25,418 nucleotides of DNA, from IMG/VR virus record IMGVR_UViG_3300031565_004200, positions 1 to 25,418 of that record. The stretch is one strand, 5' to 3'. Both the position numbers and the translations under genes were made by a program. The notes beneath the pieces were generated by a model. It had not been told where the DNA came from. It did not search any database and saw only the letters and a list, made by a program, of their open reading frames with translations. Below are positions 625-16,501 of this stretch, piece after piece. The DNA comes from a virus. Position 1 is the first letter of the stretch, and each line of letters opens with the position of its first letter.

Positions 625-2559
625 CTAGATTATTTGTCATTGCAAGCACCTACTAATACTTCATCAGTTATAACAGAAGCACCGTTCTCACAGATTATTT
701 CTGAAGTAGAGCAGCTGAAAGAAGCTACTTCTGCTATTCCTGCTATGATGAGATCAGACCCTAAAGCTTTTGAGAAAGCTTGGCGGACTATGTCGAAAGA
801 CAAGCCCGACCGTGGTCCCAAATCTGCTTTCTTTGATCCACTATCCCTTCAATATGCCCTTGGGTATAAGGATAGAAAATACTCCCTTACCTACGACACA
901 CTGAAGAGGATGGCTACTCAGCTTGGCGTAGTAGCTGCTATTGTGAATACGAGAATTGCTCAAATTGCAGCATTTTCTCAGCCTTATCGGACCACAAAGT
1001 CTCTAGGGTACATTATCAGGCACAAAGATCCAGAGCATTCCACCACTTCCAGTGAGCGCAGGTTTATTCAACAGTTGGAGTCTTTTATAGCTAGCTGTGG
1101 TGAACCGGGTAGAGAGAATCCTTATACTCGACTAAAGAGACCTAAATTTGAGTCATTCTTGAAGATGATAATTAGGGATACTTTAATTTATGATCAGGTT
1201 TCTTTTGAAATCGTTCCGCGCAATAACGGTATCCCGTTTGAGTTTCGCGCAATAGACGCTTCTACCATTCGTCTTGCTGCTCCAAGTCAAGATGCGTCGT
1301 CGTCGATGCAGTACAGTTACCACCAGAGGAATCTTATTCAGGGAATGACTGGACCTACTGCTAGTAGATTTGGAAATATGTACACGGGAGAGCAGTACGG
1401 GTCTGGGCAACCCTCTGAAGAAGTGATCAGTTGTGTGCAGGTGGTGAATGGTCAGATTCAGAATGTATACACATTCGATGAGTTAGCTTTCGGAGTAAGG
1501 AACCCACGGACTGATATTTATGTTCAGGGATACGGATTTGGAGAGCTGGAGCAACTGATCACAATCATTACCAGCCTTCTATATGCTGAGGAGTACAATA
1601 GGCGATTCTTCATGCAAGGAGCCCACCCTAAAGGTATTTTAAACTTCAAGGGAGACAATTGGACTCCAGATCAACTCGAAGCTTTTAAGCGACAGTGGAT
1701 AGCTCAGGTAGCCGGTACCCAAAATGCATGGAAAACTCCCATCACCCAATCTGAAGGTGTTGAGTGGATTAACATGCAGATGACAAATCAAGATATGCAA
1801 TTTAACGTTTGGGTGGAGTACCTCCTTAAAGTCGCATGTGCAGTTTTTCTCATCGATCCGGCAGAGATCAATTTTGATCTTCATGGTGGAGTACAGCAGA
1901 CTCCTCTATTTGAATCTTCTCAAGAGTGGAAGCTGAAAGCTTCTCGTGATCGTGGTTTGAAACCACTTCTCAGATTCATAGCTGGCCTCGTTAACGAGCA
2001 CGTTATTGACAAGATCGATGACCATTTTGTTTTTGAATTTGCTGGTCTCGATGAGCTTACTGAGCAAGAAAAACACGAGATGATTAAAGAGCAGATTCAG
2101 AGCTACATGACTTTGAATGAGGCTCGTCGTTCTTTGGACCTTCCAGATATTGCTGGAGGTGTAGGTGATTTACCGCTGAATCCAACGCTTGTACAGCTCC
2201 TTCAGTTTATGGACCAGAAGCAACAGCGTGAGGATGAGGCAGATCAGCAGCAACAGCAGGCACAACAACCTGCAGCAGAGCCACCTGCTGATCCACAGCA
2301 AGAACTGAAAGCAGCTCATGCTCAGCAAAAAATACAGCAGGGTCAGGAGAAGCATCCCATTGAGATGGAGATGTTGAAACAAAAACTGATTCAGGCTGGT
2401 GGGCAGGTACCAGAACCTCCACTTCCACAAGAAGGGGAAGAAGTTCCTGCTAAGGCTGATAATCAACCTTTGTCTAAGTATGCTGATCTGATTGGCAAAG
2501 CTAGTGATTTCAGTTTAGACGACTGGATTACTAGGATGAGAGAGATGGACGATGAGTAA
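622..2559 (+). CDS. Portal protein
   Basis: A 645-residue protein with the features of a tailed-phage portal, the dodecameric ring at the capsid vertex through which DNA passes. After a short N-terminus come segments typical of the family: LGVVAAIVNTRIAQIAAFSQP, an RDTLIYDQVSFEIVPRNNG strand pair, and GYGFGELEQLITIITSLLYAEEYNRRFF, where the long helix begins. Further on is AVFLIDPAEINFD. From about residue 530 the tail is rich in Gln, Pro and Glu, probably disordered. ATG 622 is chosen over GTG 610 because GGAG sits six bases upstream. The stop overlaps the next gene by 8 bases. Position next to the minor head protein and before the protease and capsid genes fits. The assignment is firm from family pattern; the phage subgroup is not identifiable. 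Confidence 0.85.
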   Translation: MLDYLSLQAPTNTSSVITEAPFSQIISEVEQLKEATSAIPAMMRSDPKAFEKAWRTMSKDKPDRGPKSAFFDPLSLQYALGYKDRKYSLTYDTLKRMATQLGVVAAIVNTRIAQIAAFSQPYRTTKSLGYIIRHKDPEHSTTSSERRFIQQLESFIASCGEPGRENPYTRLKRPKFESFLKMIIRDTLIYDQVSFEIVPRNNGIPFEFRAIDASTIRLAAPSQDASSSMQYSYHQRNLIQGMTGPTASRFGNMYTGEQYGSGQPSEEVISCVQVVNGQIQNVYTFDELAFGVRNPRTDIYVQGYGFGELEQLITIITSLLYAEEYNRRFFMQGAHPKGILNFKGDNWTPDQLEAFKRQWIAQVAGTQNAWKTPITQSEGVEWINMQMTNQDMQFNVWVEYLLKVACAVFLIDPAEINFDLHGGVQQTPLFESSQEWKLKASRDRGLKPLLRFIAGLVNEHVIDKIDDHFVFEFAGLDELTEQEKHEMIKEQIQSYMTLNEARRSLDLPDIAGGVGDLPLNPTLVQLLQFMDQKQQREDEADQQQQQAQQPAAEPPADPQQELKAAHAQQKIQQGQEKHPIEMEMLKQKLIQAGGQVPEPPLPQEGEEVPAKADNQPLSKYADLIGKASDFSLDDWITRMREMDDE

Positions 2560-3352
2560 GAAACCATTAGATGAACCTAAAGAGTTGTACAGTCACGCTT
2601 ATGACGTACCCGACTCTGAGATGGGAAAATCGGAGGATAGAATGTCTAACAAATCACTTCAGGCACTCAACGATCTGTCTTCAGTAGTTGAGAAATCTCA
2701 GAGGACGGACAAAGCCAACTTGGGAACCCTTCAGTATGATGCAGGGGCGAAGAAGATGACCTTTGGCGGAAAAGAAGCTGAAGGTCTTGGTATTGCGGGA
2801 AAGGAGCCAGGAAAGGTGGGAGATGTTCATTTCAAATTTCCAGGTGAGGGCGAAAAGAAGGAGGGAAAGACTGGACCAACTCCTCCTCCTCTTCCAAAAG
2901 ATGCCAGTGTAGGAGCTGACAAAGCTATGCCGGGCGGAATTGGATCAATTGGCGGTGGCGTTAAAGGTGGAAGCGGTGGAGGAGGTCTCGTGAAAGCGAT
3001 GACAGCTTCAGCTATGCCAGCTGTCAGAGGTGCCAGACTTCGTGCAGGTGAGATGGACATACATCGTTCGGCTACGATGGGGATGACTCGGGGCAATGCT
3101 AAGTTTGCCAAAGATGTCCATACAGGTCCTCTCTGTGGAGAAGTTATCGAACAGGTTGAAGAGGATGCTGTACGCAGAACTAAGCAGCCTATACATAAAT
3201 CTTGCCTTGGTTGTGGACGCAGGTACATAATCAAGAGCATGAATGATTCCTGCCCAACTTGTGCTCTTAGTAAATCCCATATGTGCCAGGAATGCGGTTA
3301 TCAGTTAGTGAAGAGTCATGGTGGATTTGCTTTTTGCCCGATCTGTGGCTAG
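2552..3352 (+). CDS. Protein with two C-terminal zinc ribbons
   Basis: 266 residues. The first ~150 are hydrophilic and contain a Gly-rich linker around residues 128-150 (GGIGSIGGG and similar). The last 49 residues hold four CxxC knuckles: C218/C221, C234/C237, C245/C248 and C262/C265. This spacing fits two zinc ribbons in tandem. No catalytic motif is visible. The start overlaps the end of the portal gene by 8 bases, which indicates translational coupling. Zinc ribbons commonly bind nucleic acid or protein, so a structural or DNA-contacting role in the head is possible but is inference only. It also contains VEKSQRTDK and LVKAMTAS, part of a K-[SA] pattern recurring in neighbouring proteins. 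Confidence 0.7.
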   Translation: MSKKPLDEPKELYSHAYDVPDSEMGKSEDRMSNKSLQALNDLSSVVEKSQRTDKANLGTLQYDAGAKKMTFGGKEAEGLGIAGKEPGKVGDVHFKFPGEGEKKEGKTGPTPPPLPKDASVGADKAMPGGIGSIGGGVKGGSGGGGLVKAMTASAMPAVRGARLRAGEMDIHRSATMGMTRGNAKFAKDVHTGPLCGEVIEQVEEDAVRRTKQPIHKSCLGCGRRYIIKSMNDSCPTCALSKSHMCQECGYQLVKSHGGFAFCPICG

Positions 3353-3361
3353 GAGATAACA

Positions 3362-4111
3362 ATGTTTTTGTATTTACGTCATAATTTAGTAAAAGCTTCA
3401 CCTGAACCAAAGGTGACTAAGCTTCCTTCGTCTGGTCCAGAGCACTCAAATATTCCTCCGTTGTTGATGAGATTAAAGCCAACGAAGGTAGGGAGTCCTG
3501 ATCGAAAAACAGGAAGACTTTCTAGGGATTACGCAGGTACAACTGAAGGTAGGTCTCCTTATCGTTGTAATCCAAAGAATGGTGGCTGTGGAAAGAATGT
3601 GATTCCAGCATCGACTTCGAAGCACGATACTATCGAAGAGGCAGCTAAAATTGCTGGAAAGACTGGTGGAGAGATCGGTAACACAACTAAGGATGGATCT
3701 ATTTTAGTTCATCGACCTCATCGGGTAGTGGAGGGAGCCAAAAGTACTCCATTAAAAAATCCTGTTGAAGTTAAGCATCACCCAAAGACAGGCGGGTCTG
3801 GATTGTGTCCAGATTGTCATGACAAGTGGGGAGGGTTCGATAAGCCTCATGTGATCTCAAGAACGGTTAGCAAAAGTATTGAGCTGTTGAGTCAGATGTT
3901 GAAGGGGTTCGGTCCTGCAGGTGAGGGGTTTGGAAAGCCTATGGAGAAGAGGAAGGGAGAATCTTCCAACGAGTTTATGAGTAGAACTATTAGACACTTG
4001 ATGAAAGACAAAGGGTATGATCAAAAACGTGCGGTAGCTGCTGCTTACCAAATGACAGGTCAATCTAAAACAGGAAAACCAGTAGCCAAAAGTCTGTATT
4101 TGGCTTTGTAG
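3362..4111 (+). CDS. Head-module protein with a Cys4 zinc site
   Basis: 249 residues, function not recognised. A zinc site is likely from C69 and C76 (CNPKNGGC) combined with C149 and C152 (CPDC), with H139/H140 nearby. The ends of the protein are Lys-rich. Near the C-terminus, SRTIRHLMKDKGYDQKRAVAAAY resembles a short helical segment often seen in small phage proteins (IRHLM..K...QAVAIAL). It also contains KSIELLSQMLKG and KSLYLAL, members of a motif recurring in this cluster. The start has AGGAG eight bases upstream, just after the preceding stop. CPDCH made me consider an HNH nuclease, but the second half of that motif is missing. Confidence 0.65.
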   Translation: MFLYLRHNLVKASPEPKVTKLPSSGPEHSNIPPLLMRLKPTKVGSPDRKTGRLSRDYAGTTEGRSPYRCNPKNGGCGKNVIPASTSKHDTIEEAAKIAGKTGGEIGNTTKDGSILVHRPHRVVEGAKSTPLKNPVEVKHHPKTGGSGLCPDCHDKWGGFDKPHVISRTVSKSIELLSQMLKGFGPAGEGFGKPMEKRKGESSNEFMSRTIRHLMKDKGYDQKRAVAAAYQMTGQSKTGKPVAKSLYLAL

Positions 4112-4120
4112 GAGAACAAT

Positions 4121-4594
4121 ATGTCAAATAACCCATATGCTGGAGCTGTTCCTCTGAACTATAGACAGGGAACTGAAGAGCAAGTGGCCAGATCTACTAG
4201 TTTCCGTCCAGGGGAGACGCATAAGCCGGAGTATCGAAATCAGTACAATGATCGTACTATTTTACCCAGAAATGAGGGATGTACTCCGCTGCGTCGGTAC
4301 CCTGACGGACGACTAGATTTTCAATTTGTTGCGTCTCATATCATCGACATAATTCACAAGATCAAAGATGGCGGAAATGTTACTGAGTTTGAGAAAGCTC
4401 TGTTGACACTTACGTTGCCAAAGCAGTTTGGCAGACTTGTAGATCCGAAGATAGCTCAGACGATGACTAAAATTTCAACTGATGAACGCTTGGCAATAGC
4501 GATGTTACTCGACAGACACCAGCGAGAAGAGCTGAATTGGAATGCTGGAATGGGTGGCGGTAGCGTTCCAGGTCGAGGTTCGTCTAGGAGCTAA
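4121..4594 (+). CDS. Unrecognised head-module protein, 157 residues
   Basis: I do not recognise a family. The N-terminal third is polar (NPYAGAVPLNYRQGTEEQ). The middle, about residues 68-130, is predicted helical with FVASHIIDIIHKIKDGGNVTEFEKALLTL followed by DERLAIAMLLDRHQREEL. The C-terminus is Gly/Ser-rich. A TAGGAGA site lies seven bases before the ATG, immediately after the preceding stop, so it is part of the same + strand operon. Its position between the portal and minor head genes suggests a virion or assembly role, which is inference from context only. Confidence 0.65.
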   Translation: MSNNPYAGAVPLNYRQGTEEQVARSTSFRPGETHKPEYRNQYNDRTILPRNEGCTPLRRYPDGRLDFQFVASHIIDIIHKIKDGGNVTEFEKALLTLTLPKQFGRLVDPKIAQTMTKISTDERLAIAMLLDRHQREELNWNAGMGGGSVPGRGSSRS

Positions 4595-4902: not shown

Positions 4903-6068
4903 TGCGAGCTGATCTAATTGTAAAGCGCCCATTGCGACCTGCAGGTAATCAAGGATTGCCTCTCTATGTTTATGGGCAAAAACCTGAGATACCGATGTTG
5001 AGGGCTCCTTCTTATCCTCTCTCTTTTGAGCGGTCGATGCATTCGGGGTATTTAGTTTCCCTCTTGCAGAAGGGGGCGGATATTGATCCGTGGGACATTA
5101 CTACTGAGAGATCGATGTGTTTGAGTAAAGCAGGATTAGCTCAGAAGGTGAGTACAGATTCTAGTGTTGATCCCTATGGTAAGACTCAATTTAGAGCAAC
5201 CCCCTCGGTTAGCAAGCCTAAGCTTAGCGTAGTTCCGCCAATGCGCGAGCCTGTTAGTCCTAAAGGTATTGGGGAGAAGCCTCCGACTAAGGAAGGAGAA
5301 AAGGCTGAATTCTTTAACTTTCTAGAAAATAAAGATCCTAAGTTGGGGGAAGAAGGACCAAAGCCTAGAACTAAGACTAGAGTATCTGAGATGAAGGATT
5401 TATATGCAGATAGTCCGAGCCAGATTAAAGGTCGTCCTGCGATACATCAAGATTCTCCAGACGTGTCGAGTCCTGAGCATAAGTTGGCTGCGGCTAAATC
5501 TGGGAGAGACTATCACTACTCTAATCATATGTACCATGCGGGTCAGTCAAGGGATGCAGGACTACCAGAAGCCCAACGCAAAGACCATGCACAGTTAGCT
5601 GCTCAACACGCTCACGGGTGGAAGGTTTCGGATTTACATGTTCGATCACACGAAAGTATGGGGACTAAAGATACTGAGAAGCACCATGCAGATTGGTCAC
5701 AGTATCATAGACTGAATGCTGATCGCCATAAGGAGAATCCGGCTAAAGAGAGTGGAGTACCTGATACTACCCACGCTACTTCTATGTCACGACACAAGTT
5801 CCATGACTCCCGAGCTGGATTCATGCCTGGGGAGATTGAGCACGTTGGGCAGTTACATGATTTTACAACTGCTGGTTCCAAGGTAACCAAGGTACCGAAA
5901 GAACAGAAAGTGCCAGCTAAGCTTCAATCAGCCAGTCACCTTCAGGTTCCTACTCCTGATACAGGATCATTTGCTGCAGGGGCTAAGCCAGCTGGTGAGA
6001 GTGCTGATACTATGAGCCTAAAAATTAAAAAGTCTTTAGATGATCTTTTTTCGATGGTATCAGCATAA
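4902..6068 (+). CDS. Unrecognised head-module protein with His-rich centre
   Basis: 388 residues, family not recognised. The N-terminal ~90 residues contain hydrophobic and aromatic patches (GLPLYVYGQKPEIPMLRAPSY). Residues ~90-180 are Pro/Lys-rich and probably disordered. The centre, ~190-310, is very His-rich (DYHYSNHMYHAGQ, AQLAAQHAHGWKVSDLHVRSHE, EKHHADWSQYHRLNADRHKE). The C-terminus ends SLKIKKSLDDLFSMVSA, matching a short motif seen in neighbouring proteins. The start codon overlaps the preceding stop; the stop abuts the next ATG. The regular spacing of His and Asp could bind metal, but no known metallo-enzyme signature was recognised. Confidence 0.65.
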   Translation: MRADLIVKRPLRPAGNQGLPLYVYGQKPEIPMLRAPSYPLSFERSMHSGYLVSLLQKGADIDPWDITTERSMCLSKAGLAQKVSTDSSVDPYGKTQFRATPSVSKPKLSVVPPMREPVSPKGIGEKPPTKEGEKAEFFNFLENKDPKLGEEGPKPRTKTRVSEMKDLYADSPSQIKGRPAIHQDSPDVSSPEHKLAAAKSGRDYHYSNHMYHAGQSRDAGLPEAQRKDHAQLAAQHAHGWKVSDLHVRSHESMGTKDTEKHHADWSQYHRLNADRHKENPAKESGVPDTTHATSMSRHKFHDSRAGFMPGEIEHVGQLHDFTTAGSKVTKVPKEQKVPAKLQSASHLQVPTPDTGSFAAGAKPAGESADTMSLKIKKSLDDLFSMVSA

Positions 6069-8111
6069 ATGGCAGCTCTAACTAAAGAGCAGATCAGCAG
6101 GCTTATTGAGCTGATTCGAGATCATACGAGTTGGTTAAGTTTTCGCTTGATGGGTTCGAGATACGTGGATCAGTTTGAGATTAATAGGTTGAAAGCCATG
6201 GGGACGCTCCCTATGGATGTACAGATAGACTCAATGGAGTACGCCTTTGTTCTCGGTAAGCTTGAGGCTGTGCTAAAAGAGGCTGAGTGGAAAAATTTGT
6301 CTTGGAATGAATTGGTATCCAAGACTGAGAGAGGGCTTACAGATATCCAAGAACTTCAAATAGAATCAGCTGCTCTATCAGCACAGGGAGTTTTTAGAGG
6401 TCTGGAGCAAGAGATACAGCAAGGTCTCTTCAGAAATATGGCAAATGCTGTTCAGACAGGAGTCAGTAATGCTACGGTAAGAGGTGTTATTGGGGATGAG
6501 ATTCAGACAGCTGTCGAGACTCGAAAGACCTACCTTAAAGTAGCTGAGGAGTTTGAGGAGAAGCTGAAAGAGCCTAAGAGGAATTGGGAGAGGGTAGCTA
6601 TAACTGAGATGCATAACGCACGACAGCAAGGTGTTGTCGCTGCTATTGTAAATAAAGAGGATGTGTACCGACATTCTGATGGTGAAGATAGTGATGTAAC
6701 TATTCAGCTTGATCCTAAAGCATGTGATGATTGTAATCGAATCTACATGGATAAGAAGACGGGCAATCCTAAGATTTTCAAACTATCCGAGCTATTGGCA
6801 AACGCGGGGACGAATTATATTCGCCCATGGCGTCTAAATGCTAGGCCAGTAGTCCCTCCCCTGCACCCAAACTCTATTGCTGGTTATGCAGTTGTTGAGG
6901 GTAATACTATTGCGGCAACTAAGATGTCATACACGGGGAAGATTAGGGAAATCGTAACAGCTCAAGGTCGAACGCTTCCCGTTACCCCAAATCACCCGAT
7001 AGCAACCAGCAGGGGATTTATTCCTGCTGGTCAGGTTCAAGAAGGAGATTATCTCCTGTCTTACAATGAGGGGATCGAACAGGCAAATGTATCTAGGTCC
7101 ACTTTTGTATCTGGATCCCCTGTCTTTCCTCCAGAGAATGGTCAGCACGGACCAACCAAGATCGAGGAGGTATTCCATACGCTGTCTCTCATGAATAAGC
7201 CCCTCTCCATAAGGAGGCTTGGCAGCGAGTTCCACGGCGATGCGGCGTATGGGGATGGCGACATCGAGATTGTATATGCCGACAGCAAATTGCGGGACAG
7301 CACTGAGACCACAGACGTTGATCAGATCCAGCGTCTCTTGCTCGAATCGGCCAAGTTTTCTTCCCTTGCCGTTCAGCATAAGCGCCTTGGCACATCGCTT
7401 TTTATGGGTGACGGAGTTGGTCTTTCCGAGACGATTTCCACTCATACTTCGGAGTCTAGCAAATCCTTCAGTCTCCCATCTGAGACGTTGTGCGTCGGAT
7501 CTACCTCGCACTTGGATACCCTGCTCCTTGAAATGGGCGGTCAGTTTACAACGCGAGATGCCAGTTTCTGCGGAAATCTTGTAGAGGGACTTCCCAGCTT
7601 GGTGTTGCAAGATCAAGTTGTCGAGATTAGGGATGTTGACTATTCTGGTCATGTGTATGATCTCCAAACAGTGAGTGGAGTCATTGTATCTGAAGGATTA
7701 ATAATAAGCAATTGTTTCTGCAGATTACGCTATGTGCCGCGAGGGTGGGGATGGAATAAGAAGAGGAGAATGACTGTTATGGATAAAGAAGAATATGAAA
7801 AGAGGCTCAAAAAGAGCGTAGAGATTTTGCGTAAATCAAATGAAGAATCCGAGGATCCTCCGGGTAGTCACTCTCTACTACATTCAAGTCTGTCCTCAGT
7901 ACAGATACCAACTAAAGAAGAGATCTATCAAATTCATGATAAGAATGAGGCTGACAAGCTAGTTGATAAGCTTCGAAACTTAGGAGAGCTTCACTCAGAC
8001 GATGCTGATGCGTATCACCACATTCAAGATTTGATTAATTTCGCGTTGGATCAGTCTTATGTACTTGATAATGGTGGTCTAGCGGAACCGGAGCCAGAAA
8101 ATGTCCAATAG
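6069..8111 (+). CDS. Mu gpF-like minor head protein, interrupted by an intein
   Basis: 680 residues, made of ~400 residues of head protein split by a 280-residue intein. The first extein has the family's helical core, with RVAITEMHNARQQGVVAAIV at about residue 177, then C219 and C222 (CDDC). It stops at LHPN268. The second extein resumes CFCRLRYVP from C549. Joined, they give HPNCFCRL, the Cys/His-rich signature ending the Mu gpF family (compare HPNCRC), so splicing would rebuild the zinc-binding motif. The ~100 residues after that are charged, with KKSVEILRK. Mu gpF-type proteins are minor head components encoded near the portal, as here. The gene starts directly after the preceding stop and overlaps the next gene by 11 bases. 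Splicing itself is inferred. Confidence 0.88.
   Translation: MAALTKEQISRLIELIRDHTSWLSFRLMGSRYVDQFEINRLKAMGTLPMDVQIDSMEYAFVLGKLEAVLKEAEWKNLSWNELVSKTERGLTDIQELQIESAALSAQGVFRGLEQEIQQGLFRNMANAVQTGVSNATVRGVIGDEIQTAVETRKTYLKVAEEFEEKLKEPKRNWERVAITEMHNARQQGVVAAIVNKEDVYRHSDGEDSDVTIQLDPKACDDCNRIYMDKKTGNPKIFKLSELLANAGTNYIRPWRLNARPVVPPLHPNSIAGYAVVEGNTIAATKMSYTGKIREIVTAQGRTLPVTPNHPIATSRGFIPAGQVQEGDYLLSYNEGIEQANVSRSTFVSGSPVFPPENGQHGPTKIEEVFHTLSLMNKPLSIRRLGSEFHGDAAYGDGDIEIVYADSKLRDSTETTDVDQIQRLLLESAKFSSLAVQHKRLGTSLFMGDGVGLSETISTHTSESSKSFSLPSETLCVGSTSHLDTLLLEMGGQFTTRDASFCGNLVEGLPSLVLQDQVVEIRDVDYSGHVYDLQTVSGVIVSEGLIISNCFCRLRYVPRGWGWNKKRRMTVMDKEEYEKRLKKSVEILRKSNEESEDPPGSHSLLHSSLSSVQIPTKEEIYQIHDKNEADKLVDKLRNLGELHSDDADAYHHIQDLINFALDQSYVLDNGGLAEPEPENVQ
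6927..7652 (-). CDS. Antisense HTH plus Vsr/EDxHD-like homing endonuclease within the intein
   Basis: 241 residues on the minus strand. Residues ~10-58 form a helix-turn-helix (AGKSLYKISAETGISRCKL, then KEQGIQVRGRSDAQ). Residues ~102-175 look like a Vsr/EDxHD-type nuclease core: E104/E106, PQFAVGIYNLD130VAI, IAVE141L, H154, and the YLLDLGWSVLTILW helix-strand typical of DUF559/Vsr proteins. The end has CYRVIWGNGK. The conserved G-G-x-W-H stretch expected after the Glu is replaced by AAKPPYG, so activity is uncertain. The frame begins at ATG 7652, preceded by GGAG nine bases away; an upstream TTG at 7667 is less likely. The gene spans nearly the whole intein and stays inside it. Recognised by eye from family pattern; a chance antisense frame is the alternative, but domain order argues against it. 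Confidence 0.72.
   Translation of the reverse strand: MTRIVNIPNLDNLILQHQAGKSLYKISAETGISRCKLTAHFKEQGIQVRGRSDAQRLRWETEGFARLRSMSGNRLGKTNSVTHKKRCAKALMLNGKGRKLGRFEQETLDLINVCGLSAVPQFAVGIYNLDVAIPIRRIAVELAAKPPYGEGLIHERQRMEYLLDLGWSVLTILWRKDRGSRYKSGPRYICLFDPLIVRQEIISFLNLTSRNKSPAGCYRVIWGNGKRSTLSCYDFPNLPRV
7662..7665 (-). promoter_or_regulatory. Ribosome site of the antisense endonuclease gene
   Basis: Minus-strand GGAG (CTCC on the + strand), nine bases before ATG 7652. It lies between the candidate antisense promoter and the start codon, and it decides for ATG 7652 over TTG 7667. Confidence 0.55.
7683..7711 (-). promoter_or_regulatory. Candidate promoter for the antisense endonuclease gene
   Basis: On the minus strand TTGCTT (7711-7706) and TACAAT (7688-7683) are separated by exactly 17 bases. 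The -10 matches TATAAT at five of six positions; the -35 matches TTGACA at three of six. Predicted transcription start is near 7676, giving a ~24-base leader that contains the GGAG site. The promoter lies within codons for the intein's C-terminal block and ends on the intein/extein junction, so the unit would be self-contained. Short promoter matches also occur by chance. Confidence 0.5.
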
Positions 8112-11100
8112 TAATATGCAAAAAGCACTGGACATCTTAAAGTCCATTAATAAAGTACAGGTAGAAAAGATTCCTGGTGGTGCTGCAGCAGGAAAGGAGT
8201 CGAAAGATTACGACTCTGATCAACTGAAGATTGGTACACAGCACGAACTTGAACATGGAAAAGACCAAAAACTGGCTCAAGAAATAGCCATGGATCACTT
8301 GGAAGATGATCCTAATTACTATCGAAAATTGGAGAAATTCGACAAAGCTCAACCAGGAGAAGAGTTAGACGAGTTTCGTGGAGGAGACCCAGAGATAGCT
8401 CAGGAGAAAAAAGAAGAGAAAAGAGAAGAGCAAGAGTTAGAGAAGGCCGGTGCTGGTGAGGAAGCTGGAGAGTTTAGAGGAGGAGACCCAGAGCTAGCTC
8501 AGCAGAAAAAAGAAGAGAAAAGAGAAGAAGCTGCTGGCGCTGGTGAGGTAGATGAACCAGCAGAGGAAATGGATCAGGATGAGGCAGACGAACTGATTGC
8601 AGAGGAGGCTGAAAAGGAGGAAGAGAAGTCGGTGAAGAAGGCTATGCCTCTAACGTCATCTCAGGTTTCTCCAGTAGATACTCTAGAAGATTATCGTCCG
8701 CGAGATATCAATGGTGACCCTCTGGATAAAAAACCAGAATATGCGATGCCCGATATCAAAATAAGCCCTACACGTAGAGGGGCTAATCAGTTTAGACCGT
8801 GGTCTGAGGTTACTGGAATCAAGATTCCTCTCACAGGCAACCCGTGGATTCATATGAAGCGATGGTTGATGCGTGGAGACGACAAGAGGGCTATTGAAGA
8901 GAATGATAAGTTGTCTCGTTGTATAGATGAGTCTTTTTACGAGTATCTGACTGACTTTGCAAAAGCAGGTGTGGAAAAGCTTCTAATACTGAATCATGGA
9001 CTTATGTTTGACCCCTATTGCTTCGGTACTTTGGTCAAAGCTGCGAAGTGGGAAGTTATTCCTGGTCATAAGTACATCTATCGTGAGTGGAAAGGGGATG
9101 CTTGGCGGTATACCTATACTGATGGGATTCACAATAATCACGGAATTCAGCATGCAGGTAATCAGCAGGGTCATACAGTAGAGGCGCATGATGATTGGCA
9201 CCAGCAAGACCCAGAGCACAAAGACCCGAAGGGTGGCTTCGAGCATGCTCAACAAAAAGTTATGGAGACAGGTGGGGTATTTCCTCTTACGATCAACAAT
9301 CCAGATACTCCCACAGGAGAACCTGTACCGGAGAAATTTCACCTAGTCGTTAGACCTGGAGGTCAAGCAAAACCGCTGGAACTACATCGAGACGAGGGAC
9401 AAGATCCTTCAAAATTGAAACCATCTAAGGCTGACAAACGGATGAGGAGCTTCGATGATCTGGAGCATCATTTTCGTAAGACTCAGCATGTCAGTACAGA
9501 GCTTGGACCGGATGGAACTCCGTATCTGCAGTGGTATATTGGAAAGCCTGGGAAGTCTAAAACAGGGAAAGAAACTACTGAAAATCGTCCATACGTGAGA
9601 TTCATTGAGTCTAGTCCTCATTACCAAGAGTATGGATTCCAAACCAGCAAGAGCGGAGCTGGCTGGTTTCGACCATTTCGCAGTATTGAGGGGATCAAGA
9701 ATCATCTGCAAAAAGTGGCTGAGCAGCATACTCAACTTAGTCAAGATAAAGTATCCACGAGGGATATTAAACCTGCTGAGAAGGGTAAGACTTGGGCAGA
9801 GACTATTGAGTCTGGGGCATTCTCAGGAGCTAAAAAGAAAGTAGATATTGCCTATAAGAATACAGAAGATCCCAAGAAAGGCGGTAAACGTCGAGGTGTG
9901 ATGCGAGTGGATTGGGAATCTGGTGCTGAGCAGCAACGAGTTACAGGAGGAATTAGGAGAGAATTCGAAGGCATGTCGGTAAAGATTGCGAATGATCTTG
10001 TACGAGAGGCTAACAAGAAGCGGATGGAACAGGGTAAGATGCCGATCACCGGCAAATCAAAAGGCCGTATGATTGGCAATTTGATCTCTACTCCTGCCGT
10101 TATTGCAGTGAATCGTGCTCTTGATGGGTACACCCCTGGTAAGGCTAAGTTTTCATCATATCTGTACAGCCATATGCAGGGAGAAATGCTCAATGAGATG
10201 AGAGCAGCGTCAGGTGGGGAAATCGAACGACATACGGCAGCTACTGATACTTCTGACCTATTTAATTCAGGTAAATCATCTGAAGGAAGCAGAGTACCTA
10301 AAGCACGCATGTCGGCGCACAATGCTGCGATTGATGCAAGTGATAAGACTCCGCAAATCGAACACGAAGATCTCCGAGAGTGGGCGAACAGAGCAGAAGA
10401 GCACATGTACAACCACTACATGGCAGCTTTGGAGAGCGACACAGAAGATGCTGCTGAGATCGATATTAAGATGGCGCAGGTTCAGGATGAACTTGAGGGA
10501 GCTGTCAAAAGTGGGGATTACACAAAGGTGTTGTCTCTTATAAATAACCACACAGATCCCAAACATGGAGGAATTCAAAACTTCTTGCCACCACTGGAGA
10601 TCAAAAATCGTGCAGAACTTCATAGTCAGATGGATGATGCAGTAAAGAGGGGAGAGGTTGAACAAGCCTTAAAGCAGGAGTATGGGGACGGCAGGCTTGG
10701 AGAGACCCTTTCCGATATTGATAACTCGATTCCTGAAGAGGAGCGAGATGAGGGAGTGTTCTTCAGCCCAAGTATGAAGAAGAGGATCAAGAATGAAGGA
10801 CTACAGACATTTAAAGATTTGGCTGTGTCTATTCAGAGAGATCCGTCTATTTCCCTGGGAGAGAAAGCAAAGTTCAACTCAATCGCAGAGTGGGTTAAGC
10901 GTGATTCGACTCTGTCAGCAAAACACGGTCCAGTACCTAGATCTGAGGAGTTGGAGAAAGCTCTCGATATATTGAAGGCCAATCTTCCAATACCTCCGCA
11001 GACTCTTGATCAAGACAGTGGTAAGAAGGACGAAGGAGTGAATCCACTTGGAAGAACCGAGCAAGAAGAACAACCAAATAATAGTCCTCCTGACGTGCAG

Positions 11101-12729
11101 TACATCGGGAAGAGAGGTGAGCCAGAGGCACCGCAGTTTCTGTATGAGACTTCAGGTGTTAAGAACATCGTGTACGGGACTAATGCCCCAAAGGACAGCA
11201 GGGATTATGACGAAGTATTGGGAGATCCTGTATTCGACCCGCACGAGCCACATCCCGAAACTCAACCGGAGTTTTTTGATGAGCAAGGACGAAAGTTGAG
11301 TGGTCCTGTTCCTGAAGATGTAGAAGTAGAGGACAATCCAGAATACGACGAGGATAGAACGAAAGGTAACTTTTGGGTCAAGAGGTATACCGATCCGCAG
11401 ACAGGAGAACCTGTTTACATTTATCTTCATCGTGATCAGATTTTAGATCCACGGTTGAAGAATAATATTGAGATCAAGTATCTCGATGAGCAACTGCCAA
11501 AAATACGAGCGTGGTATCAAGAGAAGATGATGTCCGCTGACCCACATGACCGTGCAGTAGCACTATTGACTGCGTTAGTTGATCAAGCAAAATTCAGGAT
11601 CAGAGAAGTCTTGCTGGGGTTGCGTGTCAAGGATGTAACGGTACATGATCACACTAAAATTACTGTAAGACTTCCTCATGGCGGTTCAACTGATGTCACA
11701 ATGGATAGAACTCCTATGAATGTTTTGAGAGAGATCATGAGTGGGAAGAAAGAAGATGATCTCATATTCGAAGTGAATGGAGATAAATTCGATTATGAGA
11801 CGTTTGCTAGGTTCATGAAGGATAACTTCGGAGTCCTGCCGTCATTCTTTCACACTTATCATGTGACGGAGTTGTTTTCAAAAGAATTTCATAAGTTAGT
11901 TCGTAAGGATACTGAAGAGCTGTCTTCAGATCGTATGGATGAGTTGAAGCAAGAGGCGCTAAAGAAGGTGGCAGATGTTCTGCATATCCATGATCCAGAA
12001 TTCCTTGAGTCGCATCTGGACCCAATTGCAATGGAAGCTCTATATTTGGCTGCTCATACGACTGACAAAAAGCATCTCAGTAAAGGGTCTTTTAAGCTTC
12101 AAGGAAGACTTTCATTCCAAGGATTGCCCGTTTCTATTGAGAATAAAAAAGGATCAGTAAGAAAGTGGTACGACCCTCACGGCGAGGAGAGTGGCCAGAC
12201 TAAGATGCATTTTGATTATGGATACATCAATGGAACCTGTGGTGTAGACGGTGATTATGTCGATGTGTACATTGGACCAAACAAGGAATCTAAAACAGTG
12301 TTTGTGGTCCATCAGATGAAGAAGCCAGATTTCAAAAAGTATGATGAAGATAAGGTCATGCTTGGGTTTGATTCAGCAAAAGAGGCCAAGTCAGCCTATC
12401 TAAAGCAGTACAATGATCCTGGATTCTTTGGTGCCCTGGACGAGATTCCAATGAACGCATTCAAAAAGAAGGTACTAGCTACAGCTGAACGACCTTGTAT
12501 GATAAAGTCGTGGCATGTCGCGGTAAACCCGCCTGACAGAGATCCTGATGAGACAATGTTCTCTCAATGGGTCCATTCCTATCCCATACACGAGCACTAT
12601 TTTCATTGGGATGCTTATCAAAAGAAAGCTGAGGATGCTCAGTTTGAAGACATCGCTAGGATTGGACTGATCGGCGGAACGAAGAAACCTCCCATGAGCG
12701 GGGAGTCTCATGCAGAGGTGTCCTTGTGA
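8101..12729 (+). CDS. Polyvalent multidomain protein: DUF5661-, sigma region 2-, topoisomerase IB- and pyrophosphatase-like
   Basis: 1542 residues. Domains in order: DUF5661-like segment, ~23-78 (IPGGAAAGKESKDYDSDQL, HELEHGKD, EIAMDHLEDDPNYYRKL); acidic repeats, ~86-145; unassigned region to ~600; sigma-70 region 2-like segment, ~640-702 (VNRALDGYTPGKAKFSSYLY, HMQGEMLNEMR); topoisomerase IB-like domain, ~1088-1320 (FWVKRYTDPQTGEPVYIYL, RIREVLLGLRVKDV, FFHTYHVTELF), with His1305 (ESHLDP) where the family has its Tyr nucleophile (SYxHP); and inorganic-pyrophosphatase-like domain, ~1336-1459 (SIENKKGSVRKW, HFDYGYINGT, DGDYVDVYIGP, DEDKVMLGF). Fusions of this kind are described as phage polyvalent proteins, thought to be packaged and delivered with the DNA; that role here is inference. 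It overlaps the minor head gene by 11 bases. The pyrophosphatase-like domain is the most secure assignment, the sigma-like the least. Confidence 0.8.
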   Translation: MSNSNMQKALDILKSINKVQVEKIPGGAAAGKESKDYDSDQLKIGTQHELEHGKDQKLAQEIAMDHLEDDPNYYRKLEKFDKAQPGEELDEFRGGDPEIAQEKKEEKREEQELEKAGAGEEAGEFRGGDPELAQQKKEEKREEAAGAGEVDEPAEEMDQDEADELIAEEAEKEEEKSVKKAMPLTSSQVSPVDTLEDYRPRDINGDPLDKKPEYAMPDIKISPTRRGANQFRPWSEVTGIKIPLTGNPWIHMKRWLMRGDDKRAIEENDKLSRCIDESFYEYLTDFAKAGVEKLLILNHGLMFDPYCFGTLVKAAKWEVIPGHKYIYREWKGDAWRYTYTDGIHNNHGIQHAGNQQGHTVEAHDDWHQQDPEHKDPKGGFEHAQQKVMETGGVFPLTINNPDTPTGEPVPEKFHLVVRPGGQAKPLELHRDEGQDPSKLKPSKADKRMRSFDDLEHHFRKTQHVSTELGPDGTPYLQWYIGKPGKSKTGKETTENRPYVRFIESSPHYQEYGFQTSKSGAGWFRPFRSIEGIKNHLQKVAEQHTQLSQDKVSTRDIKPAEKGKTWAETIESGAFSGAKKKVDIAYKNTEDPKKGGKRRGVMRVDWESGAEQQRVTGGIRREFEGMSVKIANDLVREANKKRMEQGKMPITGKSKGRMIGNLISTPAVIAVNRALDGYTPGKAKFSSYLYSHMQGEMLNEMRAASGGEIERHTAATDTSDLFNSGKSSEGSRVPKARMSAHNAAIDASDKTPQIEHEDLREWANRAEEHMYNHYMAALESDTEDAAEIDIKMAQVQDELEGAVKSGDYTKVLSLINNHTDPKHGGIQNFLPPLEIKNRAELHSQMDDAVKRGEVEQALKQEYGDGRLGETLSDIDNSIPEEERDEGVFFSPSMKKRIKNEGLQTFKDLAVSIQRDPSISLGEKAKFNSIAEWVKRDSTLSAKHGPVPRSEELEKALDILKANLPIPPQTLDQDSGKKDEGVNPLGRTEQEEQPNNSPPDVQYIGKRGEPEAPQFLYETSGVKNIVYGTNAPKDSRDYDEVLGDPVFDPHEPHPETQPEFFDEQGRKLSGPVPEDVEVEDNPEYDEDRTKGNFWVKRYTDPQTGEPVYIYLHRDQILDPRLKNNIEIKYLDEQLPKIRAWYQEKMMSADPHDRAVALLTALVDQAKFRIREVLLGLRVKDVTVHDHTKITVRLPHGGSTDVTMDRTPMNVLREIMSGKKEDDLIFEVNGDKFDYETFARFMKDNFGVLPSFFHTYHVTELFSKEFHKLVRKDTEELSSDRMDELKQEALKKVADVLHIHDPEFLESHLDPIAMEALYLAAHTTDKKHLSKGSFKLQGRLSFQGLPVSIENKKGSVRKWYDPHGEESGQTKMHFDYGYINGTCGVDGDYVDVYIGPNKESKTVFVVHQMKKPDFKKYDEDKVMLGFDSAKEAKSAYLKQYNDPGFFGALDEIPMNAFKKKVLATAERPCMIKSWHVAVNPPDRDPDETMFSQWVHSYPIHEHYFHWDAYQKKAEDAQFEDIARIGLIGGTKKPPMSGESHAEVSL
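8380..8528 (+). repeat. In-frame direct repeat, 99-base period
   Basis: Two near-identical ~50-base copies (8380-8429 and 8479-8528) starting GGAGGAGACCC encode EFRGGDPE[IL]AQ followed by KKEEKREE. They lie in the acidic linker of the polyvalent protein. The 99-base period keeps the frame, consistent with a recent internal duplication. Confidence 0.75.
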
Positions 12730-15058: not shown

Positions 15059-16501
15059 ATGTACGGACAAATTTCCCTTCGTCAGTATGAGGGACTGAAC
15101 GGTTTCGGTTCTGCCCCTGCTGCTGACATGCAAGAGTTGCACAAAGCATTGGAAGCCGGTTACCAAGTAACCAGTCAAACAGGTGGTTCGGCTCTCAGAG
15201 TTGAGAGTTTAGAAGCCAGTTTGAAGGTCGTTACCTGGTCTAACCACCATATCAAATTTTGGAAAAAAATTCCGAAGTCACCAGCGTACTCGACTGTTGA
15301 AGAGTACAACCAACTTATGAGCTACGGTCCTCAGCACTTTGCGTTTACGCAGGAAGGTGAATTGCCACCTGCCACTGATACGCAGTATGCGAGACGAACC
15401 CAACTCGTAAAATTTATGGGGACTCAACGAGAAGTCTCCCACCCTGCCACCTTGATCCATCCTGCACACGGGGACATCATTGCACTCGAAAATCAGAATG
15501 GAATTTTGTGGCTGCTCGAAAGAGTTGAGCAGGCTCTGTTCTCTGCTGATTCTTCACTGGCCTTTGATGGTCAGGCTGAGCAATGGGATGGTCTCGATGC
15601 TCTCATTGATGCTACTTCTTTTGTCGATCTGCAAGGTCAGCCCATGCAGGAAGCCGACATCGAGGAAGCTTCGAACGTTATCATCGAAAACTATGGTTAC
15701 CCCACAGACTTGTTCCTTGGAACTCGTGTGCAAAGTGACCTCGTCAAGACCATGTACCCGCGTGAGCGGATTCAGCTGCCTGCTCCTCAGAATGGGCAGA
15801 TCGGTCAGGCGATCAACACGATGGCTACCCAAGCTGGAGTCATCGAGTTCAACCCCGACATCTTCATTCGTCGGTTACCCTCTCCTCCATCAGCTCCTAC
15901 GCACGCGAATGCTCCTGCTACACCGCAGGCTATTACCGCTGCTGACACCGGAACCGATGGTGATTTCAACAAGGGCGCTCCTGCTGGAAGCAATGAGTAC
16001 AACTTTGTGGTTACCGCGTGTAATCGCTTTGGTGAATCTGCTCATTCTCCCATCATGGTCGCAAACCATGAGATGACTCAAGTAGAGAAGGATGCTGGCG
16101 AGCATATCGATCTTACGATCACCAATGCTGCCACTATCGGTGCTTTTCCTCCTGAGTATTTCAGGGTGTACCGTACTGCTCCGATTGCTTCTGGTGGCGC
16201 AGTTCCAACAGCTGCTACTCAGTTCAGTTTGATTATGCAGGTTCCCTGCGTGCTTCAGACTGGTGGTGCAACTGGTGCATCGCCTGACGATGTCAACTTC
16301 TTGCTACCATTCACCAATGTCGCGTACATGGGCGAACTGACTCCGAACGTCATCACGTTCCGCCAGCTTGCACCGCTGATGCGTCTTGATTTGGCAGTGC
16401 TTGCTCCTGCTTATCGCTGGATGATCTTGATGTACGGAACTCCACTCCTTTTCGCTCCGAAAAAATGGATCCGTATGATCAACATCGGACAGTTGGTCTA
16501 G
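15059..16501 (+). CDS. Probable major capsid protein with Ig/FN3-like insertion
   Basis: 480 residues, following protease and scaffold-like genes and preceded by a strong AAAGGAG site. Residues ~1-275 and the last ~65 read as one capsid fold (ALRVESLEASLKVVTW, STVEEYNQLMSYG, VSHPATLI, then FRQLAPLMRLDLAVLAPAYRW). Between them, about residues 276-415, lies a segment like a fibronectin/Ig repeat: Pro-rich entry (PSPPSAPTHANAPATPQ), EYNFVVTACNRFGESAHSP, then IDLTITNAA and PEYFRVYRTAP. Such a domain would project from the capsid surface and could bind host or environmental glycans, as described for other phages' capsid Ig domains. The C-terminal capsid residues resume with GELTPNVITF. No close named relative is recognised. 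The stop is followed by a strong hairpin. Confidence 0.72.
   Translation: MYGQISLRQYEGLNGFGSAPAADMQELHKALEAGYQVTSQTGGSALRVESLEASLKVVTWSNHHIKFWKKIPKSPAYSTVEEYNQLMSYGPQHFAFTQEGELPPATDTQYARRTQLVKFMGTQREVSHPATLIHPAHGDIIALENQNGILWLLERVEQALFSADSSLAFDGQAEQWDGLDALIDATSFVDLQGQPMQEADIEEASNVIIENYGYPTDLFLGTRVQSDLVKTMYPRERIQLPAPQNGQIGQAINTMATQAGVIEFNPDIFIRRLPSPPSAPTHANAPATPQAITAADTGTDGDFNKGAPAGSNEYNFVVTACNRFGESAHSPIMVANHEMTQVEKDAGEHIDLTITNAATIGAFPPEYFRVYRTAPIASGGAVPTAATQFSLIMQVPCVLQTGGATGASPDDVNFLLPFTNVAYMGELTPNVITFRQLAPLMRLDLAVLAPAYRWMILMYGTPLLFAPKKWIRMINIGQLV

Follow-up and report, generated by a model that had tools for sequence, protein, structure and literature searches.

The subject of this study is an intein in the gene for a MuF-like phage head protein, carried by an IMG/VR virus record (IMGVR_UViG_3300031565_004200) whose entire 25,418 bases are referred to as the window, together with a second gene that lies wholly inside the intein on the opposite strand. 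We consider it very probable that the two form a mobile MuF intein whose homing endonuclease is a separate opposite-strand gene, overlapping the intein codon on codon. Translation of the sense strand would yield the capsid protein together with the intein, which would splice itself out; the antisense strand would be translated from a ribosome-binding site (RBS) and an ATG built into the C-terminal block of the intein (sense GHVYDLQ). The resulting protein, with a predicted helix-turn-helix (HTH) region and a Vsr/EDxHD-type nuclease domain, most likely cuts intein-free MuF alleles at HPN/C (slashes mark the junctions), and repair of the cut allele would copy the intein in.

RESULTS

Two genes in the same codon register

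The antisense nuclease gene (6927..7652, minus strand) encodes 241 amino acids (aa) and runs from an ATG at 7652-7650, opposite the sense His of GHVYDL, to a stop at 6929-6927; nuclease residue numbers count from the ATG at 7652. The sense open reading frame (ORF) that hosts the intein (6069..8111, plus strand) encodes a MuF-like phage head protein of 680 aa and matches phrog_15127 'head protein' (E 6e-29). Both frames are in the same codon register, 6069 and 6927 being multiples of 3. The initial annotation had described the two genes as sharing codon boundaries and several conserved motifs as complements of each other, and a base-by-base check bore out all of its positions. Sense EFHGD (7227..7241, plus strand), written GAG TTC CAC GGC GAT, has the reverse complement ATC GCC GTG GAA CTC, which encodes nuclease IAVEL and sets the catalytic-type Glu141 opposite TTC at 7230-7232; sense IEIV opens at ATC (7263-7265), the complement of the Asp130 codon GAT; and the codons of sense TPNHP (6984-6998) pair with those of RVIWG close to the nuclease C terminus.

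By homology and structure prediction, the antisense protein is an HTH protein with a nuclease domain of the Vsr/EDxHD type. The HTH region covers residues ~10-43 (7524..7625, minus strand), with helices at 10-18, 23-30, and 34-43 in the model and matches to HTH families in many relatives, and profiles and the model place the catalytic domain at residues ~101-212 (7017..7352, minus strand). Our non-redundant set consisted of 153 loci (numbered with the prefix L), of which 108 remained at 95%; L032, L033, and L156, with E values above 1e-30, and the second ORFs of L009, L035, and L079 were omitted. Asp130 (7263..7265, minus strand) and Glu141 (7230..7232, minus strand) are invariant in all 108 members, Tyr127 and Asn128 are found in 107, Arg158 in 106, and His148 in 89. 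Glu104, Asp130, Glu141, and His148 are conserved across the nuclease family; the window copy has Tyr at position 148. Taken alone, the window nuclease gives a weak Pfam match to MTES_1575 (E 0.0028), a family matched by 73 of 80 aligned members (E <= 0.01), while HTH_7 is matched in 30 and HTH_58 in 29. The nuclease profile matches 3hrl (E 1e-6) and I-Bth0305I, 3r3p (E 8e-4). In the structure model (pLDDT 84.4), the nearest structures are I-Bth0305I 3r3p (probability 1.00) and Vsr (0.99), and a VIA comparison returned Vsr 1cw0 with Z 10.5 (114 residues, 3.0 A), 3hrl with Z 10.0, and 3r3p with Z 9.8 (94 residues, 3.2 A). In its combination of NUMOD3, an HTH, and this nuclease domain, the free-standing relative L033 is built like a homing endonuclease. 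An HNH identity was considered and rejected: the match to phrog_7545 (E 0.022) spans only residues 22-78, and the catalytic part fits Vsr-like models.

The start of the nuclease gene, TTTGGAGATCATACACATG in the window, carries a Shine-Dalgarno-like GGAG (7662..7665, minus strand) made by a sense Leu codon, CTC, plus C. Most of the 108 loci place an ATG or GTG across from the His of sense GHVYDL. For the Leu of VY[DN]L, 76 of 89 loci use CTC, compared with 734 of 3151 Leu codons (23%) elsewhere in the same ORFs; this choice yields GGAGG, GGAGA, or GAGG about 8-9 bases upstream of the nuclease start. Since CTC is silent in the sense protein, its prevalence points to translation of the antisense strand.

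The intein on the sense strand

On the evidence of profiles and structure models, the insert in the MuF ORF is an intein with a Hint fold, which presumably splices. It comprises 280 aa, Ser1 to Asn280 with a +1 Cys (6873..7712, plus strand; HPN/S...SN/CFCR). Ser1, the block B motif TPNHP (T-x-x-H), Asn280, and the +1 Cys are all present in the window; the consensus of the relatives is Cys1, TPNHP, a terminal Asn, and a +1 Cys, and the sense frames listed for them are MuF-like proteins with the intein at HPx/C...N/C(R)C. The PF14890 score of the window intein is 28.5 bits, below the cut-off of 35.8; the intein family profile reaches a best E of 5e-12 against solved inteins, and the top Foldseek rows for the predicted sense structure are all inteins. 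The Ser codon at 6873-6875 that opens the window intein stands in a position where nearly all relatives have Cys. Two intein size classes, of ~272 and ~325 aa, occur among the relatives, and an additional HTH module is present in several of the longer antisense proteins.

In the AlphaFold model, the Hint halves mostly have pLDDT values of 75-98 and residues 141-240 only 35-61, in a model whose sense alignment also carries the conservation of the nuclease. Residues 91-140 (7143..7292, plus strand; block means 76-91) form a predicted structured island that contains FHGD, and residues 141-240 (7293..7592, plus strand) form a linker predicted to be mostly disordered. The C-terminal blocks GHVYDLQT...IISN (7647..7712, plus strand) also hold the start and the RBS of the nuclease gene.

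Selection on the two strands

The selection test used 43 independent pairs, drawn from 86 of the 108 non-redundant loci; L020, which repeats the window, had been dropped before counting. In a same-phase overlap, position 1 of the sense codon is the wobble position of the opposite-strand gene. Differences in the core of the overlap number 4024, 1959, and 2802 at sense positions 1, 2, and 3 in 7901 codons, with more at position 1 than at position 3 in all 43 pairs, whereas the left flank, which is read only in the sense direction, has 3039, 2585, and 4416 in 7208 codons, with position 3 highest in all but 1 of the 43. Per opportunity, changes that alter the antisense protein and are silent in the sense protein occur in the core at a rate of 0.019, the reverse kind at 0.073, and changes silent in both at 0.100; the flank has 0.076 and 0.012 for the first two kinds. 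Alignment by the sense protein instead altered the core rates little (0.023 and 0.070). Amino acid identity in the core is 0.587 for the antisense and 0.413 for the sense protein, an order that is reversed in the flank. Purifying selection on the antisense reading thus exceeds that on the sense reading in the core. The substitution pattern suggests that the information there belongs to the nuclease and that the sense reading is mainly a stop-free linker, with which the low pLDDT of intein residues 141-240 in the model agrees; the ratio of sense-silent, antisense-changing to sense-changing, antisense-silent substitutions (SN/NS) along this linker is 0.28. Block B (6984..6998, plus strand), opposite nuclease RVIWG, is a part where the sense protein dominates (antisense-changing 0.054, sense-changing 0.034; SN/NS 1.53). 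Block B and the FHGD island are the places in the core where both proteins constrain the same codons.

Spread of the arrangement and the open opposite frame

Among phage records, tblastn with the antisense protein retrieved 109 records and with the sense intein 132; L021-L156 come from nuclease-based scans, one of which kept 80 of 212, and were drawn from IMG/VR and bacterial genomes of several phyla. No stop interrupts the same-phase opposite frame in 159 of 160 nuclease ORFs (157 loci, redundant), the sole exception being the free-standing L033, and the other two opposite frames have many stops. In loci fetched by nuclease queries, which left the sense strand unconditioned, the best ORF has an open opposite frame in 135 of 136. 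L086, with a GC content as low as 0.37, has 0 same-phase stops compared with 38 in a neighbouring opposite frame. In 28 free-standing relatives, the corresponding opposite frame contains 89 stops in 4155 codons, and only 3 of the 28 lack any (L179 was excluded from this group, having turned out to be another intein member). The ORFs that contain the overlap have, outside it, 1175 same-phase opposite stops in 51230 codons. From each locus's own use of Leu and Ser codons, 622 sense-stopping codons would be expected in 99 of the 108 loci (the other 9 had too few Leu/Ser codons outside the overlap), and 0 were observed. The absence of antisense stops is by construction, as nuclease ORFs were defined as stop-free, which does not hold for the absence of sense stops in nuclease-retrieved loci. 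Together, the open frame, the invariance of Asp130 and Glu141, and the stops in free-standing relatives argue that the antisense ORF did not arise by chance.

Retrieval from the sense side led to the same pairing, with an antisense nuclease in 8 of 8 loci, in 9 of 10 phage loci chosen among 60 matches listed, and in 6 of 6 strong genome loci; the other 6 of the 12 genome loci examined are inteins that match in block B only. L336 and L337 were rejected as antisense members, their matches (E 1.8e-6 and 1.3e-5) covering only the mirrored block B and their antisense frames containing 1 and 2 stops; a search for an antisense nuclease in L338-L341 gave no match. The view of the initial annotation that intein motifs and nuclease residues occupy the same base pairs therefore extends to a widespread gene under selection, as seen from the 159 of 160 open frames and the 43 of 43 pairs. 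Annotations overlook the gene: 22 annotated phage regions with an intein and an opposite-strand nuclease were inspected, and an antisense ORF is listed in two of them, nearly complete in one and as a fragment in the other, each time as hypothetical. The near-complete ORF, in Salmonella phage PK2 (L208:1213-2022, minus strand; 'hypothetical protein' XRA40007.1), was the only such case among the regions examined.

The FHGD motif is constrained from both strands

It had also been proposed that the FHGD motif of phage inteins exists because of a widespread antisense gene, a proposal that divides the motif. The initial annotation had named FHGD-bearing inteins with a regularly interrupted antisense frame as its refutation, and this was put to the test with a synonym-tolerant exact DNA pattern for EDFHGDG, which found at least 120 loci in IMG/VR, 113 of them with an antisense nuclease profile. 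Among the matches listed, 107 have an upstream intein TxxH. The nuclease profile is found in all 107, with a dead copy in L247; the 7 loci that lack the nuclease lack an upstream TxxH as well. Within the 108 loci, the sense protein reads [FL]HGD in 86 and the nuclease VAVE, IAVE, IAIE, or LAVE in 101. The alternation of Phe and Leu tracks the GAA and GAG codons of the invariant Glu and is thus driven by the nuclease, so that the first position of the motif can be credited to the antisense gene as proposed. His, Gly, and Asp are held by the sense frame beyond what the nuclease needs: Val140 is GTG in 97 of 99 cases, compared with 426 of 1863 for all nuclease Val codons; Ala139 is GCC in 99 of 103; and the wobble base of position 138 gives sense Asp in 103 of 108. 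The fixation of these three columns goes far beyond the prediction from the nuclease residues and their codon usage (z 10.6-17.9, values that are not probabilities because the set contains related sequences). Together with 137, they are the most strongly sense-fixed of the core interior, and the gap-rich column 134 also exceeds z 10. When change was compared on both strands, as the initial annotation had suggested, selection of the antisense type prevailed in the core and was flipped at codons 137-141, where SN/NS is 2.04 (bootstrap 1.05-4.65), compared with 0.28 (0.24-0.33) and 0.22 (0.20-0.26) around them; this is the only core stretch tested in which sense-silent changes are commoner than antisense-silent ones.

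FHGD could in principle be a pure shadow of nuclease [VI]AVE with no role in the sense protein, as its F/L alternation, its occurrence with the nuclease in every intein-like match listed, and its absence from a Lennon-type intein that shares the insertion site and has a different nuclease (see below) would allow. We regard this as quite unlikely, given the sense-fixed wobble bases and the flip in SN/NS; moreover, the mini-intein L247:5516-5998 (plus strand; 161 aa), in which the nuclease is dead (antisense stops, Glu replaced by Lys), keeps EDFHGDG, a single case that could be recent. A by-product alone was therefore rejected as the whole story. A signal at the level of DNA or RNA, for instance in the nuclease mRNA, would also show itself as fixed wobble bases, and we rate it as unlikely: substitutions follow residue classes, with GAC and GAT both used for Asp, Asp replaced by Glu in 4 of 108, and His by Tyr in 7 of 108, and the surrounding 45-residue island is predicted to be structured, in an alignment that also carries the conservation of the nuclease. 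In L160 (Idiomarinaceae phage 1N2-2), the nuclease Glu is intact and sense FHGD is absent, so the motif is not absolutely required. FHGD co-occurs with the nuclease and, judged from its codons, has a sense constraint of its own.

Proposed homing and alternative explanations

Intein-free alleles exist in close relatives. The Jerseyvirus head gene of L018, used as a query, matched 408 records, 58 of them over at least 80%. Of 60 matches taken evenly from the list, 34 cover 52-56% in two separate pieces, the pattern expected of a gene that lacks the intein. The head protein of Salmonella phage Kenya-K53 reads ...PPAHFG/CRSTTAP..., compared with ...PPAHPN/272 aa/CRSTTAP... in L018, with 337 of 348 extein residues identical. 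In L009 and L035, stops break the nuclease frame and the sense intein frame is open, and these decayed nucleases, like that of L247, fit a homing cycle.

That the antisense ORF is a mirror artefact of a conserved sense protein seems to us extremely unlikely. In its favor, GC-rich genes tend to have long opposite frames in the same phase, block B is governed mainly by the sense frame, with partial mirroring of the nuclease C terminus, and the unrelated inteins L336 and L337 give weak matches to mirrored block B. Such an origin, or one by chance, is nevertheless at odds with the codon-position flip in 43 of 43 pairs, the higher antisense identity in the core, the stops that accumulate outside the overlap and in the neighbouring frame of L086, and the homology to solved and free-standing nucleases, and both were rejected. 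A genuine nuclease might instead serve to exclude competing phages, between which phage endonucleases can act, or to regulate the head gene. We hold such a role to be very unlikely in view of a nuclease that lies wholly in an intein at a fixed site, with an HTH-Vsr build like that of I-Bth0305I, and in view of the intein-free alleles in close relatives and the decayed copies with an open sense frame.

Several observations weigh against a homing endonuclease encoded opposite the intein. Antisense transcription and translation, splicing, cutting, and homing are all inferred, and a search of the minus strand at 6800-8200 for a sigma-70-like promoter found none. Tyr148, at a position occupied by His in 89 of the 108 relatives, makes the activity of the window nuclease itself uncertain and possibly weak. 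Stops interrupt the nuclease frame in L009 and L035, and the nuclease of L247 is dead.

Other antisense nucleases in inteins

L079 has two inteins in one head gene, the second at another site (3536-4375, plus strand). On the strand opposite this second intein, an ORF of 279 aa shares its codon register and combines CxxC repeats of the zinc-finger kind with a DUF559/Vsr-like domain (E 7.7e-14); it has 0 same-phase opposite stops, compared with 3-13 in its relatives L168-L173. In Gordonia phage Lennon (L164), the intein at the usual site lacks FHGD, and opposite it lies a different nuclease (2067-2591, minus strand), which matches phrog_5046 'HNH endonuclease' (E 1.5e-15), has no Pfam match at 0.1, and looks LAGLIDADG-like by eye. 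Lennon-type nucleases occur opposite the head gene in 9 Gordonia records, and weaker relatives are annotated as endonucleases in other phages; a search of IMG/VR for further ones found no relative. These two cases rest on few sequences. On balance, we favor the view that inteins host a class of antisense homing genes, in which unrelated-looking nucleases (HTH-EDxHD, zinc-finger-DUF559/Vsr-like, and LAGLIDADG-looking) have been captured several times codon on codon, the main family having its motifs (FHGD and T-x-x-H with the catalytic and C-terminal motifs of the nuclease) and its RBS in shared base pairs.

Surroundings of the head gene

The window has a portal gene at 610-2559 and a weak match to an SU10-type major capsid protein at 15059-16501. 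An ORF at 8101-12729 (plus strand; 1542 aa) combines DUF5661, a topoisomerase I-like core, an inorganic pyrophosphatase domain, and a weak match to sigma-70 region 2. A search of phage records at the DNA level with positions 5800-8200 of the window found no relative. With L060 as query against plasmids, 2 records matched in a full-length-type search, one over the whole length. NZ_LN890657.1, a record listed as a plasmid, holds at 26737-27591 a relative of the nuclease with 45% identity to that of L060, under an annotated 'phage minor head protein'.

DISCUSSION

The intein and its nuclease are a pair of long (>230 codons), ancient, and widespread genes, one fully embedded in the other in the same-phase antisense frame, and both proteins are recognisable. 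Because selection on each strand can be separated by substitution pattern, the origin and persistence of opposite-strand genes become testable in this pair, as do the ability of a homing endonuclease to ride an intein without being spliced out with it and the cost of a fixed, stop-free opposite strand. It would be worth reading both strands of other 'mini-inteins' and of any intein whose insert is unexplained.

No paper was found in the literature on 'FHGD' with 'intein'. In publications on antisense, overlapping, hidden, or out-of-frame intein nucleases, no opposite-strand homing gene could be recognised from titles and the beginnings of abstracts; a study of actinobacteriophage inteins of 'non-canonical architecture' (Gosselin et al. 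2025, doi 10.1101/2025.01.02.630785) may overlap with ours, above all for Gordonia phages. The available part of a paper on mycobacteriophage inteins (PMC5050341) does not mention antisense, the opposite strand, or overlap.

Inteins with an in-frame homing endonuclease (LAGLIDADG or HNH) resemble the present one in Hint blocks A, B, F, and G, in selfish insertion at a conserved site, and in having the nuclease within the intein; here, in contrast, the nuclease is a separate opposite-strand gene with its own start, outside the spliced polypeptide. To I-Bth0305I/EDxHD and Vsr-like nucleases the likeness is at the level of the fold, comprising the catalytic fold and tethered DNA-binding modules, but I-Bth0305I, named 'Mobile intron protein' in the PDB, belongs to a group I intron, whereas this gene is antisense to an intein. 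In the split inteins of 'fractured genes', a gene of the EDxHD type, the same kind of nuclease, reportedly lies between the intein halves and shares no base pairs with them. Two published systems come closest among those consulted. As far as the available text describes it, the ShiLan domain is an out-of-frame HNH in a phage methylase, reported to be without a detectable RBS (PMC11855218); it is likewise a hidden homing-type nuclease overlapping a second open frame of a phage gene, but our case differs in the opposite strand, the intein host, and the conserved RBS. Antisense homing endonuclease genes have been described in nuclear group I introns of rDNA (PMC9548176), and these too, in the portion of that work available, are homing genes opposite a host gene; the other strand is ribozyme or rDNA there, whereas here both strands encode conserved proteins.

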